Source: a virus. Taken from it: a stretch of DNA of 21,933 nt. Of this stretch, positions 1 through 8,048 are shown piece by piece. The stretch lies in the IMG/VR virus record IMGVR_UViG_3300010375_000587, positions 1 to 21,933 of that record. The stretch is one strand, 5' to 3'. The position numbers were made by a program, and so were the translations under genes. A model generated the notes under the pieces. It was given only the letters and a program-made list of their open reading frames with translations, did no database searches and had not been told where the DNA came from. Each line of letters starts with the position of its first letter. The first letter of the stretch is position 1.

Positions 1-936
1 TTACCGCCCGGCTGCCTGAGCAACGGATCGCATCGGCATGGTTGTTCGGCAAGTCGGATAGTTGACACATCCCCAGAACGGCAGGCCGCCCTGGCGCGGC
101 GCTCGCTCGGTCAGCTTGATGCCGCAATTGACGCAGGTGGGACGCCAGTACTCCCCATCGAATGCGACATCGAGAAGCCTTTGCTGCTGTTCCTGCGTTC
201 GCGTCGCAATCAAGGACAGCAGGCCGTCGACGTCCAGCAGGTTGATGCTGTTCGCTCTCCCGAATGTCACGGCGTCCGGCGTGAAAGTCGACGTCGTGGC
301 GAACTGCCCGCGCTTGACATTGCGAGAGGCCATGACGCCGCGCAACTCACGGATCTTGTCGACGCCGACCCGCTTACCCTGCCAGTGCTTGCATTGAACG
401 ATGCTGACGGGCTCGCCGTCGGGCTGGGACTTCGAAAAGAGCCAGATGTCGACGCCGCCATCGGCGCCGTGCGATTGCGAACGGGTCTCGAAGCCGGCCT
501 GAGCGAACAGGGCCTCCACCAAGGCCTCGAAGCGCCGCCATTCGATCACCGCGAAAACGGGCGGACCCCATGTTGTCGGGCGCGACGGTGCTACGCTGGT
601 CGCATGCCGCTGGGGAAATGGGTCGATCATCACTGGCTCGATGCGCTCAACCGGGGGCGGCGGCCGATCCGGGCGTGCCACCGGTCTTGATTGAACGGCA
701 GCCTGCGCCTCGTTGCGGGGCGTCATCGAAGGTGTCTTCTTGCGTAGAACCAAGGCCGTTACGCCGCAACCGAGCAGCAACAGCCATCCGATGTTCGACA
801 GAGGTCGAATACCGGCGGCAATCGGCGATGTACCGAGAAGGTGAGGCAGAAGCACGAATGCGAGACCGAGTACCGCTCCCTTAATGACGGCCTCCTGGAG
901 GCGCTGCTGTGCGTTCTTCTTGGACCGTCTGGCCAT
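1..936 (-). CDS. Membrane-anchored Mrr-family restriction endonuclease with C-terminal zinc ribbon
   Basis: A 311-residue protein. The ATG at 934-936 is chosen because AAGGAGG lies five bases upstream on the minus strand; a longer reading from 963 has no such site. Two hydrophobic stretches (about residues 18-35 and 48-65) look like a membrane hairpin, followed by a proline-rich linker (70-125). Residues about 132-245 form the Mrr-like nuclease core: the FEALVEALF helix with Glu, then GGVDI with Asp163, then QCK (Gln181, Lys183), the usual D...QxK metal-binding site of this fold. The C-terminus has Cys268, Cys271, Cys290 and Cys296 in a topoisomerase-type zinc ribbon (GC-VNYPTC). Mrr relatives cut modified or foreign DNA; the role here is inferred. 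The stop codon is at the window edge. The gene is divergent from the phospholipase D-like gene. Confidence in the fold is high; the target is unknown. Confidence 0.87.
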   Translation of the reverse strand: MARRSKKNAQQRLQEAVIKGAVLGLAFVLLPHLLGTSPIAAGIRPLSNIGWLLLLGCGVTALVLRKKTPSMTPRNEAQAAVQSRPVARPDRPPPPVERIEPVMIDPFPQRHATSVAPSRPTTWGPPVFAVIEWRRFEALVEALFAQAGFETRSQSHGADGGVDIWLFSKSQPDGEPVSIVQCKHWQGKRVGVDKIRELRGVMASRNVKRGQFATTSTFTPDAVTFGRANSINLLDVDGLLSLIATRTQEQQQRLLDVAFDGEYWRPTCVNCGIKLTERAPRQGGLPFWGCVNYPTCRTTMPMRSVAQAAGR

Positions 937-1118
937 GTCGCCCTCCTTACGCGCGCCGATCATAGACGCGCCGAACCCTCAGGGACGCGGGACGGCTTCA
1001 CGGTTTGCAGGGTGCAGATCTCGTCGGCGAGGTGGGTGTCGCGTTGATTCCCACGCGACGCCGTCGCCATCGATTGCTCGGCCAGCCAGCGGGCGCAAAT
1101 AGCTTGTTAGGCTTGGCC
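937..1118. promoter_or_regulatory. Divergent intergenic region with a 7-bp inverted repeat
   Basis: This 182-bp gap separates two divergent genes, so it should hold both promoters, but I see no clear -35/-10 pair. A perfect inverted repeat GTCGCGT (1038-1044) / ACGCGAC (1053-1059) with an 8-base spacer could be an operator or a small hairpin. GTTAGGC at 1107-1113 resembles an integron attC half-site, but no partner was found. Confidence 0.3.
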
Positions 1119-1706
1119 ATGAACTTTGAATCACACAGGCTTCCCTTCTCTTCGGTCCGGCGGCCTCACCACCGTCGGTTCCTCTGCCTCATGTCAGCGC
1201 TGATCGTAGGTTGCGCGGCGCCGACGCAAACTGCTCCATCGTCGAAAGACATCGAAGTCGCTTTCTCGCCGGAGGCAGGCTCGGAAGCGCTGGTCGTGAA
1301 AGTGATCGATAGCGCACGGCAATCCGTTCGATTGGCCGGCTACTCGTTCACTTCACCGGCGATCGTTCGTGCTTTGATGGACGCCAGGAAGCGCGGAGTG
1401 GATGTGCAGATACTTGTGGACGACAGAGGCAACCGTGGCAAAGCCAGCCTGTCAGCGATGAACCTTGTCGCCGGCGCTGGTATCCCGATGCGGGTGATCT
1501 CGACGTATGCCATCCATCATGACAAGTACATCGTGGTGGACGGCAAGCACACCGAGACGGGCTCGTTCAACTACAGCCAAGCGGCCGCCCGCACGAACTC
1601 CGAGAACGTGCTCGTGGTCTGGAACAACCCCCAAGTCGCCGCCCGCTATCTCGCGCATTGGGAGAACCGGTGGGCGCAAGGGATAGCCGTCGAGATGAGC
1701 TACTGA
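1119..1706 (+). CDS. Phospholipase D-family (Nuc-type) nuclease, predicted lipoprotein
   Basis: A 195-residue protein if started at the ATG at 1119; upstream in-frame codons lack a signal-like start. The N-terminus has basic residues (RRPHHRR) and a short hydrophobic run ending IVGC, a lipobox with Cys32, so export and lipid anchoring are likely. Residues about 45-190 are a PLD domain with one HKD motif: His134-x-Lys136-x4-Asp141, followed by GSFNYS (148-153). Single-HKD members such as the plasmid pKM101 Nuc endonuclease act as homodimers and cleave DNA or RNA without metal; some relatives act on phospholipids. Length fits the Nuc group plus a signal. If the lipobox is real, the enzyme faces the periplasm and could degrade incoming DNA. 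No good ribosome site is visible before 1119. An alternative start at Met25 would still keep the lipobox. Confidence 0.85.
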   Translation: MNFESHRLPFSSVRRPHHRRFLCLMSALIVGCAAPTQTAPSSKDIEVAFSPEAGSEALVVKVIDSARQSVRLAGYSFTSPAIVRALMDARKRGVDVQILVDDRGNRGKASLSAMNLVAGAGIPMRVISTYAIHHDKYIVVDGKHTETGSFNYSQAAARTNSENVLVVWNNPQVAARYLAHWENRWAQGIAVEMSY

Positions 1707-2011
1707 GATTGCGGCGTCGAAGTGGTGCCCGAAGGGCGTCCCGACACGTCGGAAGAGGCGTGCGGGGGCTGGCGCGTGCTTTCTCATAAACCTTCGTTTT
1801 CGAGAAGGACCTCACCGCAGGCTTCATCAATTCGGGTGATGTCAACTTCGTGGGGAGTCAGGGCATCAAGGCGCGCAGACTGGCGGTCCGGGCGGATCGC
1901 CACTAGGCGATAGTTTTTCTAGAATTGCTTGCCATACAACCTAGCGACGTGACAGGTCGTTACCATCAGCCGCATTATTTAGTCGTTCGGCAACTCTTAG
2001 TAGAGGTGCAT
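1707..2011. other. Intergenic region before the TIR gene, no convincing gene
   Basis: This 305-bp stretch shifts from GC-rich near 1707 to AT-richer by 1910, marking a composition boundary just before the TIR gene. Short open frames on both strands (for example minus strand 1567-1845) have no recognisable content and overlap the PLD gene. The only element I support is a weak candidate promoter near 1949-1978. Confidence 0.5.
1949..1978 (+). promoter_or_regulatory. Candidate promoter for the TIR-OmpA gene
   Basis: GTGACA (1949-1954) matches TTGACA at five of six positions. CATTAT (1973-1978) matches TATAAT at four of six, with an 18-base spacer. Transcription would start about 27 bases before the ATG. 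This is a weak match found by eye. Confidence 0.25.
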
Positions 2012-2995
2012 ATGAGTTTTGACGTCGCCCTTTCATTCGCGGGCGAAGATCGACAACACGCTAGGCAACTCGCCAACGAATTGCGAGCACGGAATATCTC
2101 CGTATTTTATGATGAGCACGAGCAAGCAACGTTATGGGGGAAAAACCTATATACCCATTTATCGAATATCTATCACAACGAAGCTACCTATTGTGTAGTT
2201 TTCTTATCTCGCCACTATGCAGAAAAGCGTTGGACGAATTTCGAACGTGAAACTTCGCAGGCTCGGGCATTTTCCGAGAATAGGGAGTACTTATTGCCGA
2301 TAAGATTGGATGACACGGTCATTCCCGGACTGCTCACGACAGTCGCATTTGTTAAATGGCCACCACATAATGCTTCAAGTATCGCCGAGCTGCTTGAAGC
2401 AAAGCTGAAAACGATTCGAAAGCCGCCGGGTACCATTCGAGAGCCGCCTACTACACCTACCAAGCCTGCAGGCGAAAGCAACCAGCCCAGTCAGGGAGGT
2501 GAGAGGGGCGGAGAACGTAAGTCAAGAAATATAATATTTTTGCTCACAGCCATCGCGCTAATTCTTTCCATCTATTTCGTTCCAAAGCTTATCTCTAGAT
2601 ACGCTGAGCATCCACCTGAATCAGCGAATCCCGAAATTCGGCATGACTTAACTACAGAACAAAAAATAGCAATTGACGCATTCATTGCTCAAATTGCCAA
2701 TAAACAAGTGGCACGCATTCTTGTGGACGGCTACACCGATTCATCAAGAGGGCGCGAGTTCAATCTGGCAATTGGCATGAGACGTTCTTATTTGGTTTCA
2801 AACTACTTGAACTTGGCTGGCGTACAAAACGATCTAGTTGAAACTAGCTCCTTTGGCGGCGAAAGAGTTAATAATGGTGACAGTACGCCTGGCCCGCGCC
2901 CTGAGGATAACCTTGTGGCAATTGAAGCACTAGCTGATGTCGAAAGTAGGAGGCTAATAGCGCGAGCAACAATTCGATTTTCAGGAAACGAATAA
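2012..2995 (+). CDS. TIR domain - transmembrane helix - OmpA-like domain protein
   Basis: A 327-residue protein. The ATG at 2012 follows AGAGGT and begins the TIR fold directly; an earlier in-frame ATG at 1925 adds unrelated residues. Residues 1-130 are a bacterial TIR domain: FDVALSFAGEDR, VFYDEHE, LWGKNLYTHL, FLSRHYAEKRWTNFERE, with Glu78 in the catalytic position known from NAD+-cleaving TIRs, then EYLLPIRLDD. A proline-rich linker (136-168) leads to a basic stretch (ERKSRN) and one membrane helix (173-191). Residues about 215-325 look like an OmpA/MotB C-terminal domain: ILVDGYTDSSRGREFNLAIGMRRSYLVSNYL, broken here as ILVDGYTD (Asp243) and Asn251, Arg257/258, the residues that bind peptidoglycan in the family. 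Basic residues before the helix predict TIR inside, OmpA domain in the periplasm. Base composition is AT-richer than the neighbours, suggesting transfer. A defence role is inferred. Confidence 0.85.
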   Translation: MSFDVALSFAGEDRQHARQLANELRARNISVFYDEHEQATLWGKNLYTHLSNIYHNEATYCVVFLSRHYAEKRWTNFERETSQARAFSENREYLLPIRLDDTVIPGLLTTVAFVKWPPHNASSIAELLEAKLKTIRKPPGTIREPPTTPTKPAGESNQPSQGGERGGERKSRNIIFLLTAIALILSIYFVPKLISRYAEHPPESANPEIRHDLTTEQKIAIDAFIAQIANKQVARILVDGYTDSSRGREFNLAIGMRRSYLVSNYLNLAGVQNDLVETSSFGGERVNNGDSTPGPRPEDNLVAIEALADVESRRLIARATIRFSGNE

Positions 2996-3719
2996 GGAGA
3001 TCTTAACGCGCTGCTTGCCTTTCGCGACAGCCTGGCCATCGCCGAGACCCTCGCCGCGCGCGACCCCGACAATGCCGGCTGGCAGCGCGATCTTTCGGTC
3101 AGCCACGAGAAGATCGGCGACGTGCTCGTCGCCCAGGGCGACCTCGCCGGCGCGCTGCTGGCCTTTCGCGACAGCCTGGCCATCGCCGAGACCCTCGCCG
3201 CGCGCGACCCCGGCAACACCGGCTGGCAGCGCGATCTCTCGGTCAGCCACAACAAGATCGGCGACGTGCTCGTCGCCCAGGGGCGACCTCGCCGGCGCGC
3301 TGCAGACCTTTCGCGACAGCCTGGCCATCCGCGAGACCCTCGCCGCGCGGGACCCCGACAATGCCGCCTGGCAGCGCGATCTCTCGGTCAGCCACAACAA
3401 GATCGGCGACGTGCTCGTCGCCCAGGGCGACCTCGCCGGCGCGCTGCTGGCCTTTCGCGACAGCCATGGCCATCGCCGAGACCCTCGCCGCGCGCGACCC
3501 TGGCCACGCCGACTGGCAAGTCGACATTGCGTTTTTTGCTCGAAGCTTGGCATGCTTGTGGGACTACAGCAGGAGGATCGCCGCGCGCACTTACTGAAGG
3601 GGTTGGAGATCCTCTCAAGGGTCAAAGCCACGAACAGGCTCGCCCCGAGGCAGGATTACTGCGCCTGGTTCGAACAAGCGTTGAACGATTTGGACAGGTC
3701 TGCAGTAAGGCATCGATGA
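2996..3719 (+). pseudogene. Broken TPR-type tandem repeat protein (C-terminal remnant)
   Basis: Repeat homology starts immediately after the TIR gene's TAA, in the same frame (GDLNALLAFRDSLAIAE). About 3.5 near-identical 144-bp units follow, beginning at 3017, 3161, 3306 and 3450. Each encodes 48 residues with WQRDLSVSH, KIGDVLVAQGDL and FRDSLAI, a TPR-like helical repeat often found in the tails of signalling and defence proteins. The array is frameshifted: an extra G in the run at 3280-3283, an extra A at 3466, and an indel in the T run at 3532-3537. Reading across these gives a plausible family C-terminus (LLKGLEIL ... LAPRQDYCAWFEQALNDL) ending at 3719. No start codon with a ribosome site is evident. 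It may be the tail of a former TIR-TPR protein whose front was replaced. Sequencing error in homopolymers could explain two of the three shifts. Confidence 0.75.
3017..3530 (+). repeat. Tandem 144-bp repeats, about 3.5 copies
   Basis: Units share long identical runs such as CTTTCGCGACAGCC, GGCAGCGCGATCT and AAGATCGGCGACGTGCTCGT. Spacings between equivalent points are 144, 145 and 144 bases; the 145 reflects the inserted G at 3280-3283. The high DNA-level identity points to recent tandem duplication or gene conversion. Confidence 0.85.
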
Positions 3720-3720
3720 G

Positions 3721-3750
3721 GCTTCTCACAAACGAATGTTTGTGAGAAGC
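3721..3750. terminator. Perfect 13-bp hairpin, possible bidirectional terminator
   Basis: GCTTCTCACAAAC (3721-3733), loop GAAT, GTTTGTGAGAAGC (3738-3750). It sits two bases after the last TPR-remnant stop and downstream of the convergent HEPN gene, the right place to terminate both. There is no T-tract on either side, so it may instead be an RNA-stabilising hairpin or a decayed element end. Confidence 0.45.
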
Positions 3751-3996
3751 GCAGCGCGATCTCCTTTGCCCTCTGTTGGACCTGGGCCGGCCAATCGTCG
3801 GATACCACTCTCGATTGATCATTTCTGTTTTGCCGGCTGCCGCAAGAGTTTCGAGAGCCCCCCTTCAGACGGCATGGCGGGCGTCTCTCTCCCTGCTTTC
3901 CGAATGTCTTCGTGGCGATCCAAAACCGAATTTCGCGCATCAATTCCTGCCTGCCGCAAAACCGACATCCGACACAACCGCGAGCCCAGCAGGCAC
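3751..3996. other. Convergent intergenic stretch, nothing recognised
   Basis: This is 246 bp between the hairpin and the stop of the minus-strand HEPN gene. A minus-strand open frame (3656-3943) contains a protein-like run, VSDDWPAQVQQRAKEIALRF, which could be a leftover gene fragment. It has no start signal and I cannot assign it. Confidence 0.35.
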
Positions 3997-5370
3997 TTAG
4001 ATCTCGGGAGGCGCCGACTCCTTTTGAGGAGGGGAGTCGTGGGTGGACACCGTAAGGGTTGCTGGGAGGGACATAGCAGGGAAGCCGCGAGTTGAGTGAT
4101 CCAGGAAGGGATGCGAGAATTTAATATGAATCAGTAGCAGTAAATAGAACAGGTGCAGACAGCGCAGCATGCTATCAAGACCAGCTTGGATCTCAGCCGT
4201 AGTCTCGCCAGCGATAATCGATCCGCCGTGCGTGGATCGGTTGCGCACAGCCCGCCAAGCGGCCTCAAGCTCCAAACGGAACCAACCTTCAGCCGCCAAT
4301 GCTTTCAAGGCCGCACTGGGAGACTTTCCCTTGATACTTGAGAGCGCCCCACGCCCCCGTTTCTTCATTTGCTCGTCGACCGGAGCGGAAACAAGGTGCT
4401 GCGCCATGGCGTCGGCCGCCGCCTGAACGGCGGGTTCCTCCTGCATTCGGTTTGAGAATAGTTCGCGGAGCATCCGCTCTACGCCGACACCGAGTGGCAG
4501 CGATGACGCTACGAGCCCTTGATCCCAGGCCGCCAGTATGCTGAGCCAGCAGTCGTAGAAGGGACAACTGCCAGCATGCGCGACTTTTGCGTACGCCGCC
4601 ACGAAGGCAACGTGCGAACGATATTGCCGGCTATCAAATGGCGGCCAGATCGTCTTGCCGAGGTGGGCGAGCGGCACAGAGAAGATTCTCGTCGTCTCTA
4701 AGCTTTCACCGCGGCTAATCTGAGAAGAGATCGTCATCTGAGTGCCTGATGCGATTGCAAGGCCCTCAAGCAATCTTGACGCCGCGACTATGTCTACCTC
4801 TTTCACATCATTATGTGCAATAAGCAGGAGGTAGCCTTTGCGTTGGAAGATCGTCACACGGCTACCGTCAGGTGACTCAAGGTTCAGCTTGGTCATCGAG
4901 CTAGAACCGTTCCGCTCCTCCACAGCGTTGCAGGGGATGATGGCGCTCGTGTGTACGACCAACTCGAGGCTGTTGCTCTTACCACCAACAAACGGCGGAC
5001 TACTGCTTGCAATAAATGGCAAGCTCGCTTGCACATCGCTGCCGTCAACCGCCGCATGCACGTTTTCACTTATGGTGAAACGTTCCGACGTCCAAGTGCT
5101 TCCGTTCGGAGCGGTAGCCGTCATCGTGAAGAAGGCGTCATCCGGCAGAAGTTCGCCAGCTTGACCACGTAATTCCAGTGCTTCGCCAAGGGCTACCCGT
5201 TCGGTTGCGAACATTCGTAGTTCCAGCGCGCCATCCGTTCCGCGAACAATGGTTGCTGGCCCAGTTCGCGTCTGTGGTGGGTTTGAATTGGACCGCGTCA
5301 ATACTGCGGTAGGAAATACATATTCCCGATTTGGGCCAATTTGTCCTTCCAGACTCGAAATCGATGCCAT
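3997..5370 (-). CDS. HEPN-motif protein with beta-rich N-terminal half, possibly ApeA-like
   Basis: A 457-residue protein, start taken as the first ATG in the frame (5368-5370); no strong ribosome site is visible. Residues 1-240 are rich in short beta-type segments and polar turns (DGALELRMF, FFTMTATAPNG, STWTSERFTI, SRVTIFQRKGYLLLIAHND) with no membrane span. Residues about 245-420 are predominantly helical, with LGVGVERMLRELF, then AAWRAVRNRSTHG. The six residues 376-381 are R-N-R-S-T-H, the RNxxxH signature of HEPN ribonucleases, followed by a hydrophobic helix (CLHLFYLLLLIHI). A beta-rich front and C-terminal HEPN is the layout of ApeA, an anti-phage HEPN protein, but I cannot confirm homology by eye. 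It would act as an RNA-cleaving abortive effector if the motif is functional. The last 25 residues are low-complexity. It converges with the TIR/TPR region and diverges from the GmrSD-type gene. Confidence 0.65.
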   Translation of the reverse strand: MASISSLEGQIGPNREYVFPTAVLTRSNSNPPQTRTGPATIVRGTDGALELRMFATERVALGEALELRGQAGELLPDDAFFTMTATAPNGSTWTSERFTISENVHAAVDGSDVQASLPFIASSSPPFVGGKSNSLELVVHTSAIIPCNAVEERNGSSSMTKLNLESPDGSRVTIFQRKGYLLLIAHNDVKEVDIVAASRLLEGLAIASGTQMTISSQISRGESLETTRIFSVPLAHLGKTIWPPFDSRQYRSHVAFVAAYAKVAHAGSCPFYDCWLSILAAWDQGLVASSLPLGVGVERMLRELFSNRMQEEPAVQAAADAMAQHLVSAPVDEQMKKRGRGALSSIKGKSPSAALKALAAEGWFRLELEAAWRAVRNRSTHGGSIIAGETTAEIQAGLDSMLRCLHLFYLLLLIHIKFSHPFLDHSTRGFPAMSLPATLTVSTHDSPPQKESAPPEI

Positions 5371-5819
5371 CTTGAGGTGCCTTTTTGTGCTGCTGATTTT
5401 GCGAGTCGCGTTTCCGCATTACTCTGCGATGGAAAGTATGGCGACCAACTGGTTATTTAGGCACTGTGCCGCCTAGCGCTTGACATAAAAAATCGATCCG
5501 AATTTACCAAGGGCGAGTTGCTCGGTCGAATTCTTGCTCGTATCTGAAATGCAGCTGTGACGTGTAGACCGCGTTTTGCCGATTGCCTGCAGAGCGCAAT
5601 CTGACGAGCGTCCTGCGGCACCCACCGCGAGCGTAGCGAGAACGAAACGGCCCTCTCGATCCCTCGATTCCACTGGCTCATCCGCAGAAGTCCCCAGTCC
5701 AATCTGAGAGTACCCTGCGATCGAAATCGATTGATCTGTTGACCCGTGGCAATGTTAACTCGTACGCATGCGATATGCTCGCCGCTACCGACCGCTAGTC
5801 CTACTCTGGAGTTCCCTGC
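5371..5819. other. Divergent intergenic region between HEPN and GmrSD-type genes
   Basis: This 449-bp region should carry promoters for both flanking genes. TTGACA at 5480-5485 and TTGACC at 5739-5744 are possible -35 boxes, neither with a good -10. A minus-strand open frame (5473-5673, 66 codons, ending GKFGSIFYVKR) overlaps a second open frame. It has no visible ribosome site and I recognise neither. No RNA gene or clear repeat seen. Confidence 0.45.
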
Positions 5820-7508
5820 ATGGCGTCACTCGACCAGATCCGCATCGACCTCGAAGGTATCGCCCACGTGCTGGCCGACAATCGCGTCAAAGTTCCAACT
5901 TTCCAGCGCTCGTACGCATGGGAGGAGACCCATGTTAAGGATCTACTCCGCGACGTAGCCGATGCGATCAAAGCGGGAACGAATGAATATTTTCTGGGCT
6001 CAGTAGTCGTTTCGACTGAGCACGCAGGGGTTCTTGAAGTCATCGATGGTCAGCAGCGGCTTGCCACAGTGACAGTGTTCCTTGCCGCCATTCGCGACTA
6101 CCTTCTCGAAAACCAACAGGAGGATCGAGCTTCGTCGCTGGAGGCTGACTACCTTCTGAAGCGAGATCTGCGGACGCAGGAGCCTTTGTCTCGACTTACG
6201 CTTAATGACATTGACCACGACTTTTTCCAAAAGGCGATATTAGCCCGGCCGGGGACTTCAGATCGGAAGGTGACGCCAACTCGGAACTCACATCAGTTGC
6301 TGCTCGCGGCTCGCGGAGCAGCTCAGAGGCACATACAGGCAGTGGTTACGACATCCAAAGCGCCAGTCGACGGCCTCGTTGACTATATCGAGTATCTTAG
6401 CACTCGAGCGAAGGTCATCTTGGTCCAAGTACCTGACCACTCGAACGCATTCACAATCTTTGAGACTCTGAATGACCGTGGGATCGATCTTGCGATTTCC
6501 GACCTTCTAAAGAACTATTTATTCTACCGCGCTGAGAAGCGCATTACCGAAGTACAGGCGGCGTGGGCGGCGATGCTTGGTGCACTGACCGCCGTCGATA
6601 CGGACGCATCTGTGGTCGACTACATCAGGCACTACTGGTCATCACTGAATGGGGCGACTCGCGAGCGCGATCTGTACGCGGCGATCCGCAAGCGCATTGC
6701 GGGTAAGCAAAACGCAGTCGATCTCTCGCGCGGACTGGAAACGGCTGCACGTCACTATGCTGCGATCTTGAGTCCTGCGCACGAGCTGTGGAACGAATAC
6801 GGCTCGACAACTCGGCAGCATGTCGAGACTATCAATTTGCTGCGGATGGTACAGGTTCGCCCCTTGTTGCTTGCAGTCTTGGAAAAGCTATCCATTGCGG
6901 AGGCAAGGAAGGCGTTTCGCCTTGCCGTAGCCTGGGGAGTTCGCTTCCTTATACATGGCGGACTCGGGGGAGGAGTCTTGGAGGACAGCTACTGTGAGCG
7001 CGCCAAGAGCATCCACGCTGGGACGATCACTACCGCAAAGCAGCTCTCGGCTGCCATGGTGCCTGTCGTTCCATCTGATGGAGCATTTGAGGCTGCTTTC
7101 GCCAACGCCTCTGTTTCGCAAGCGTATCTGGCACGGTACTACCTTCGTGTCCTAGAGAACCAAGCGCGCGGCGAGTCGCAACCGGAGCTCGTCCCGAACC
7201 CGAACCAGGAAGAAATTAACCTTGAGCACGTTTTTCCGCTGAAACCTGAAAAGAAATGGCCCGATTTTGATGACGACTTAGCCAAGGCTTTCCAGCGCCG
7301 GCTGGGGAACATGGCGCTTCTCCAGCAGCGGCCGAACTCGACCTTGAAGAGCGAGTCGTTTAGCAAGAAGCGCCCGATTCTCGCAGCCTCAAATTACAAG
7401 CTAACGGCAGAGATCGGCATGGAGACAATATGGGACGCATCGACCATCAATGCACGTCAATTGAAGCTCGCGAAATTGGCGGTCGCGGCATGGTCAACCA
7501 AGGTTTGA
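5820..7508 (+). CDS. GmrSD-type DUF262/DUF1524 modification-dependent restriction enzyme
   Basis: A 562-residue single-chain protein. ATG at 5820 follows GGAG at nine bases. The N-terminal DUF262 (GmrS-like, ParB/Srx-fold) part shows VPTFQRSYAWEE (25-36), EYFLGSVVV (57-64) and IDGQQRLATVTVF (75-87); DGQQR is the family's nucleotide-binding signature. FETLNDRGIDLAISDLLKNY (214-233) is the next conserved block. The C-terminal DUF1524 (GmrD-like HNH) part has INLEHVFP with His470, RLGNMALL with Asn497 and PNSTLKSESFSKKR with Asn506, matching the EHxxP...GN...N..F..K pattern. Fused GmrSD enzymes and relatives (for example BrxU and SspE) use NTP-dependent cleavage to attack phage DNA with modified or phosphorothioated bases. 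Length is normal for the fused form. All key residues appear intact, so it is probably active; which modification it senses is unknown. Confidence 0.88.
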   Translation: MASLDQIRIDLEGIAHVLADNRVKVPTFQRSYAWEETHVKDLLRDVADAIKAGTNEYFLGSVVVSTEHAGVLEVIDGQQRLATVTVFLAAIRDYLLENQQEDRASSLEADYLLKRDLRTQEPLSRLTLNDIDHDFFQKAILARPGTSDRKVTPTRNSHQLLLAARGAAQRHIQAVVTTSKAPVDGLVDYIEYLSTRAKVILVQVPDHSNAFTIFETLNDRGIDLAISDLLKNYLFYRAEKRITEVQAAWAAMLGALTAVDTDASVVDYIRHYWSSLNGATRERDLYAAIRKRIAGKQNAVDLSRGLETAARHYAAILSPAHELWNEYGSTTRQHVETINLLRMVQVRPLLLAVLEKLSIAEARKAFRLAVAWGVRFLIHGGLGGGVLEDSYCERAKSIHAGTITTAKQLSAAMVPVVPSDGAFEAAFANASVSQAYLARYYLRVLENQARGESQPELVPNPNQEEINLEHVFPLKPEKKWPDFDDDLAKAFQRRLGNMALLQQRPNSTLKSESFSKKRPILAASNYKLTAEIGMETIWDASTINARQLKLAKLAVAAWSTKV

Positions 7509-8048
7509 CGAACCGCATCCGATCTGCCAGCAGGAGCGACCGTTGATTGCGGGCGGGTCAGGGAGCTGTAAGCAGAATTGGCACGAGGCGCAAGATGCCT
7601 GGGCTTCGCTTGGCTCGACGTGATGCTGGGAAGCCGACGTTTTCGGCGGGGCAGTGTGGCCGCCTCCGGAACTTGCAGGGGCCGCCTACGCGCCTCAATC
7701 AGCAGCGTTGAACTCGGCTGCCAGGTCGTCGAACCGATGGCTCAAGACGACCAAAATATGTGGGTGTCGCCTCGTTTTCGCTGATCCCCTCGATCACCGG
7801 GTGCTAACAGAGACCCGTACTAGCTTGATTTCGCCGCAGGTCAAGTTCCCCGATGTCTCCTAAACAGGAGACATCGGAGTTCTTGCCCATGCCATCGCCG
7901 CTGCCTAAAACTATCTCACCCCGGTCGACATTTGACATCTAGTCGGTAGACAGTCCCGGGGCAGTTCCCGACTTCGCCTCGGCGCGGTGCAGTCCCGGCT
8001 TCGCAGACTTTCCCGGTCAACGGGGCGACCTTTTTGCGAAGGCCCACC
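7509..8048. other. Junction between defence genes and prophage, no clear gene
   Basis: A 540-bp stretch with only short, unrecognised open frames (for example plus 7578-7784, and a minus frame ending at 7695 with no start). It contains the inverted repeat at 7850-7877 and a 17-codon frame from the ATG at 7889 to the TAG at 7940-7942. Near 7951-8015 the motif CAGTCCCGG recurs with nearby CTTCGC, a short degenerate repeat. No terminase, integrase, tRNA or attachment site is visible. It may be a scar left by an insertion or deletion. Confidence 0.5.
7850..7877. repeat. Perfect 12-bp inverted repeat, 4-base loop
   Basis: CCGATGTCTCCT (7850-7861), AAAC, AGGAGACATCGG (7866-7877). Imperfect pairing extends outward to about 20 bp (CAAG at 7842 with CTTG at 7882-7885). 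No T-tract follows, so a simple terminator is not the best reading; an insertion-element end or protein-binding palindrome is possible. Confidence 0.5.

Follow-up and report, generated by a model that had tools for sequence, protein, structure and literature searches.

The window, by which we mean the whole stretch of DNA that was analysed, is an entire IMG/VR contig of 21.9 kb (21,933 nucleotides). A siphophage head-tail block starts at position 8034 and comprises genes for a minor tail protein, the portal, the head maturation protease, the capsid, the tail tube and the tape measure. The first 7.5 kb encode an Mrr nuclease, a PLD-type nuclease, a TIR-OmpA protein, a decayed tetratricopeptide (TPR) gene, a 457-aa protein and a GmrSD/HEC-06 restriction protein, and the contig ends 2 kb upstream of the TIR-OmpA gene. 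The latter forms a low-GC insert within a cluster of defence genes, next to the siphophage block. The original prediction had assigned it to phage defence, and the neighbourhood is of the defence type, with the Mrr nuclease and GmrSD/HEC-06 near by. The features in and around the gene are as follows.

1896-1911, + strand: terminator-like stem-loop followed by TTTTT, just 5' of the gene (consensus scan, pattern match only)
1897-1925, + strand: second sigma-70-like promoter candidate (consensus scan, pattern match only)
1949-1978, + strand: sigma-70-like promoter candidate GTGACA-18-CATTAT (consensus scan, pattern match only)
2002-2008, + strand: Shine-Dalgarno-like AGAGGTG, 3 nt before the ATG at 2012 (sequence)
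2012-2995, + strand: TIR-TM-OmpA gene (intact ORF; Pfam TIR_2 and OmpA)
2012-2419, + strand: TIR domain, residues 1-136, predicted cytoplasmic NADase (Pfam; AlphaFold2 pLDDT mostly 92-98; Foldseek best match AbTir 7uxu)
2243-2245, + strand: catalytic-position Glu78 in W74-T-N-F-E78 (aligned to AbTir E208; invariant in 39 sequences)
2420-2527, + strand: Pro/Gly-rich linker, residues 137-172, ending in the basic ERKSR (sequence; low pLDDT)
2528-2593, + strand: single membrane helix NIIFLLTAIALILSIYFVPKLI, residues 173-194, with no acidic residue (hydropathy; AlphaFold2 helix)
2645-2980, + strand: OmpA/Pal-like domain, residues 212-323, predicted periplasmic (Pfam OmpA; TIGR02802 Pal; AlphaFold2 core pLDDT ~90; Foldseek Pal/OmpA/MotB)
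2735-2785, + strand: Pal-type peptidoglycan-contact motif T242-D243 ... N251 ... R257-R258 (alignment with Pal)
2948-2980, + strand: R313-R314 and last strand, probable counterpart of the Pal NRRV (from the sequence and the AlphaFold2 strand 314-322)
2996-3540, + strand: decayed tetratricopeptide gene remnant with four 144/145-nt repeats and two 1-nt frameshifts (sequence, GC)

The reading frame at 2012-2995 is uninterrupted, starts with ATG, has no internal stop and encodes 327 amino acids. The TIR-TM-OmpA layout was confirmed at the coordinates listed, and the original prediction of a TIR domain, one membrane helix and an OmpA/MotB-like domain in a single chain was accurate by Pfam, hydropathy, AlphaFold2 and Foldseek. 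The consensus scan found two promoter candidates upstream, where 0.9 were expected by chance. The GC content of the gene is about 46% (TIR half 46.8%, linker and membrane helix 48.6%, OmpA half 45.3%) and that of the adjoining genes 55-70%, which marks the gene as a low-GC insert. Low GC across both halves rules out an assembly chimera with one low-GC and one high-GC part. Since the low GC is uniform, the fusion probably predates the arrival of the gene at its present locus.

The TPR remnant (RDLSVSHNKIGDVLVAQGDLAGAL repeats) follows directly after the TIR-OmpA stop in the same frame, and its start coincides exactly with the end of the low-GC insert. An in-frame fusion of TIR-OmpA and TPR was ruled out by the TAA at 2993-2995 and by the GC content of 45% versus 72%. 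The decay of the TPR gene means that parts of the locus were not maintained. The product of a related TPR gene from a Thauera plasmid consists of a DUF4062 domain, a hydrophobic segment and TPR, and the gene lies near an Mrr homologue that is 36% identical to the Mrr of the window. In the Swarozyc defence system, DUF4062 serves as a TIR-like NADase domain (PMC13174449). Because this relative has the order DUF4062-TM-TPR, TIR-like proteins with a membrane anchor may have been present at the locus on more than one occasion.

Other parts of the region were also inspected. The PLD-family nuclease (1119-1706, + strand; NucT/DrmC-like) has a lipoprotein-like start with the lipobox-like LIVGCAAP, and its DNA relatives, about 67% identical, are on Xanthomonas and Pandoraea plasmids. 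The 457-aa protein (3997-5370, - strand) gave no match in Pfam, PADLOC or NCBIfam; its C-terminal part contains the RxxxxH-type motif RNRSTH and is perhaps HEPN-like. A possible slot for defence-gene cargo lies just upstream of the minor tail and portal genes, at 1-8030 of the window and at 564-2990 of L088, a related prophage (portal 69% identical) that has a SIR2-nSTAND gene at that same flank. A GpA-type terminase is absent from the window and from L088, and the six related contigs with one carry it upstream of the tail and portal genes. Three related contigs have inverted repeats of the type TGTCxCCT...AGGxGACA ahead of their minor tail gene (window 7839-7888, L088 ~3225-3265, L089 ~4395-4435); these are perhaps the insertion-sequence ends that built the cargo slot. 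No DNA similarity to plasmids was found for 7500-8040 of the window.

The amino-terminal half was matched by Pfam TIR_2 at residues 5-116 (E 6.5e-17) and by Pfam TIR at residues 3-99, both above the curated cut-off. Alignments combining TIRs with Pals were misaligned, and the two halves were therefore modelled separately; the full-length AlphaFold2 model is accordingly poor for the OmpA half. With 38 relatives, AlphaFold2 modelled residues 1-136 as a TIR fold with a pLDDT mostly above 92, in agreement with the predicted domain, and the best PDB match in Foldseek was AbTir with the NAD+ analogue 3AD (7uxu; TM-score 0.81 by target length). Among the named TIR models, the nearest are those of defence proteins: the retron RT-TIR (2.3e-13), PDC-S66 and ThsB.

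Glu78, which had been proposed as the catalytic residue, aligns with AbTir E208 and is invariant across 39 members of the TIR subfamily. In AbTir, mutation of S140, R151, D167, V193, W204, E208 or R215 abolishes or inhibits the NADase activity, whereas mutation of V150, K201 or M222 has no effect (PMC11374754). All seven of the NADase-critical residues that could be aligned are identical in the window protein (S8, R18, D34, V63, W74, E78 and R85), and the equivalents of the three dispensable ones all differ. Because the critical set is identical and Glu78 invariant, the TIR half is likely to cleave NAD+.

The mean Kyte-Doolittle hydropathy reaches its maximum of 2.27 at residues 173-191, directly after ERKSR, and AlphaFold2 placed a helix at residues 169-199. 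The membrane helix preceded by basic residues was thus found where it had been predicted. The helix NIIFLLTAIALILSIYFV contains no D or E, so the acidic helix residue of the ZorB type is absent. Since the protein is without an N-terminal signal sequence and follows the positive-inside rule, we infer an N-in/C-out topology with the TIR domain in the cytoplasm and the OmpA half in the periplasm.

The carboxy-terminal half was matched by Pfam OmpA at residues 212-295 (E 1.4e-10, above the curated cut-off), and the named models closest to it are those of Pal, OmpA and MotB/MotY, including NCBIfam TIGR02802 Pal. When residues 191-327 were modelled with Pal sequences, the core was confident (pLDDT ~90), and Foldseek returned many Pal, OmpA and MotB structures with a probability of 1.00. 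The superposition of the whole domain was only fair, with about 68-70 residues fitting at 1.2-1.9 A (6top, 1r1m, 2aiz). The identity to IMG/VR Pals was 21-28% over the aligned length and 30-40% over the best core segment. This part is therefore OmpA-like, as the original prediction had it, and the residues named there, TDSSRG (with T242 and D243), N251 and R257/R258, line up with the Pal contact motif TDERGTxEYNxALGxRR. The extent of the domain had to be corrected: it reaches to about residue 323, and the canonical first beta-strand of OmpA is not recognisable and is missing in the AlphaFold2 model. The loop before the last strand is enlarged and lies outside the Pfam coverage. Behind R313-R314, SRRLIARATIRF (residues 314-323) is probably the last strand of the NRRV type, next to an extra strand at 301-309 in the model. 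Peptidoglycan binding by the OmpA half is plausible.

The relatives of the TIR half share the signature SFAGEDR ... VFYD ... WTNHERE ... EYILPxRxDD and have a patchy distribution across Cyanobacteria, Poribacteria, Bacteroidota, Actinobacteria, Proteobacteria and archaea. Those whose loci were read (35-65% identity) are fused to widely differing partners: GUN4, EAD1-type ends, ATPases, a Roc-type GTPase, TPR and zinc-ribbon-like tails; several of these names come from inspection of the sequence rather than from a Pfam match in every case. None of these loci encodes a membrane helix with OmpA, and the nearest TIR relatives are without a membrane helix. One relative adjoins an AlwI restriction-modification pair (L025), one an EAD1-NACHT protein (L012) and one is placed between an integrase and a resolvase (L026), while others, among them L020 and L027, lie between ordinary genes. 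The catalytic Glu is kept and some of the loci are of defence or mobile type, which agrees with what had been expected of homologues. A more distant proteobacterial TIR (L065:1456-3081, genome G067) has a membrane helix (hydropathy 2.65) followed by about 350 further residues with no clear Pfam domain, and represents a second TIR-TM layout.

A role outside defence was considered for the window protein. The gene adjoins siphophage genes and the L088 prophage has its SIR2-nSTAND gene at the same flank, which would suit a switch that responds to envelope stress or peptidoglycan damage and, for reasons other than defence, kills or arrests the host, or else superinfection exclusion by a resident prophage. 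However, the presence of Mrr and GmrSD next to it suggests a defence against nucleic acids, and some members of the TIR subfamily were found in mobile and defence loci. We regard a non-defence role as the least probable of the explanations considered here.

The same architecture was searched for elsewhere. Single-protein and alignment scans of IMG/VR gave no further TIR-TM-OmpA protein, and neither did about 1,600 sampled genomes from the phyla and classes of the relatives or the plasmids and phages scanned. A pattern scan of 84,980 genomes returned 40 loci, all with other partners and none with TIR-TM-OmpA; as the architecture scans used short conserved patterns or sampled genomes, they speak for rarity and not for uniqueness. 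The C-terminal half alone returned only ordinary Pals. No description of a TIR-OmpA protein was found in the open literature, so the literature and genome searches agree with the earlier statement that no characterised protein with this layout was known. The layout is a singleton in everything searched. The function can therefore not be argued from the conservation of the whole architecture, and there is no sign that selection keeps TIR and OmpA together.

Being a singleton, the protein could be a chance fusion or a gene in decay, non-functional as a unit, in a defence hotspot rich in gene scraps, and both the decayed TPR gene directly 3' and the missing first OmpA strand fit such an origin. 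On the other hand, the frame of 327 codons is intact and has Shine-Dalgarno and promoter-like sites, the active-site sets of both halves are preserved, and the low GC common to both halves makes the fusion probably older than its arrival here. A non-functional fusion is in our judgement quite unlikely.

We tentatively favour, at slightly below an even chance, a one-protein defence device in which a cytoplasmic NADase is controlled via a wall-tethered periplasmic domain. It builds on the observed domains, the helix, the conserved catalytic set, the contact residues and the defence-type and mobile setting; its NADase activity, orientation and peptidoglycan binding are expected from the families of the two halves. 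The device would be of mobile-element origin. Its membrane helix would join the TIR domain to the OmpA/Pal-type domain that grips the peptidoglycan, and the TIR domain would cleave NAD+ once oligomerised or freed from an inhibited state, with NAD+ depletion or a cyclic-ADPR-type product as the outcome. Speculatively, phage entry that disturbs the wall or the inner membrane, or later envelope damage, might alter the tension, spacing or clustering of the tethered molecules; this might switch the TIR domain on, leading to NAD+ loss and the arrest of the infected cell. The envelope trigger and the protection against phage are the speculative parts of the proposal, and the defence would probably be abortive. 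The low identity of the OmpA half to Pals, the absent first strand and the good fit of only about 70 residues speak against the device, as do the singleton layout, the decayed TPR gene and the lack of a membrane helix in the nearest TIR relatives. The original interpretation, a sensor of envelope disturbance that triggers NAD+ loss, is partly supported and plausible.

The Pal fold commonly serves as a wall anchor. The main alternative to the device is accordingly that the OmpA half is a static anchor holding the NADase at the envelope, and that activation comes from a phage protein or partner bound by the TIR domain or the linker in the cytoplasm. In line with this, the SpbK NADase is activated in the cytoplasm by the phage protein YonE (PMC12847820), and the TIR-like NADase of Swarozyc is activated by the phage portal (PMC13174449). 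However, the linker is Pro/Gly-rich and of low confidence and the TIR domain is short and plain, so that no cytoplasmic sensor domain is evident. We consider the static anchor unlikely, though less so than a non-functional fusion.

Within the wall-tethered device, a more specific form would be a one-chain immune receptor resembling a Toll receptor, whose peptidoglycan-bound domain senses the perturbation of the wall by the phage and activates the TIR NADase directly, without a second-messenger partner or a motor. This form is possible, though we would doubt it sooner than the device in general. The activation of TIR effectors is usually explained by the binding of phage proteins in the cytoplasm or by second messengers. 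If the proposal is true, bacteria would have a transmembrane TIR receptor formally akin to the Toll-like receptor, the idea of wall sensing from Zorya would be joined to that of NAD+ loss by TIR proteins, and envelope sensing by an immune NADase would be testable with one gene.

We know of no bacterial TIR NADase in which a membrane helix and then an OmpA-type domain follow. The window protein has the TIR fold, the WxxxE Glu and other NADase-critical residues in common with AbTir, SpbK, Thoeris ThsB and the type XII retron RT-TIR. Membership in Thoeris was ruled out, as no ThsA partner was found and no SIR2, SLOG or macro protein was present among the ORFs scanned with PADLOC and Pfam up to the contig end 2 kb upstream. 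The RT-TIR model matches only the TIR part (2-120), the C-terminus being TM-OmpA instead, and retron XII was ruled out by the features tested, with no reverse transcriptase fused or in the neighbouring ORFs tested. Residues 212-323 match Pal and the C-terminal domain of OmpA best, in sequence and in structure, and share with them the TD, N and RR motif, whereas the window protein has no lipobox or barrel, is missing the first strand and has a larger loop before the last one. The Thauera plasmid protein likewise combines a TIR-like domain, a hydrophobic segment and a long C-terminal domain next to an Mrr-family gene, but its TIR-like family is a different one and TPR takes the place of OmpA.

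ZorB of Zorya and MotB likewise have a single membrane helix followed by a periplasmic domain of the OmpA/MotB fold, and PADLOC gave a weak match of the window protein to ZorB1 (7.6e-5). ZorB has a short N-terminal tail and an acidic ion-path residue in its helix, whereas the window protein has a TIR enzyme and no such residue. The MotA-like partner ZorA gave no match among the neighbouring ORFs (PADLOC, Pfam; contig end 2 kb upstream), and membership in Zorya was ruled out on these two grounds. The comparison with Zorya made in the original prediction is therefore an analogy only. The peptidoglycan-binding OmpA-fold domain of ZorB is required for phage defence and was proposed to sense wall disturbance (PMC11890865), and it serves as a precedent for the proposed device. 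In conclusion, the window protein plausibly consists of a known part, a bacterial TIR NADase effector, and a new part, a membrane-crossing wall-binding module.
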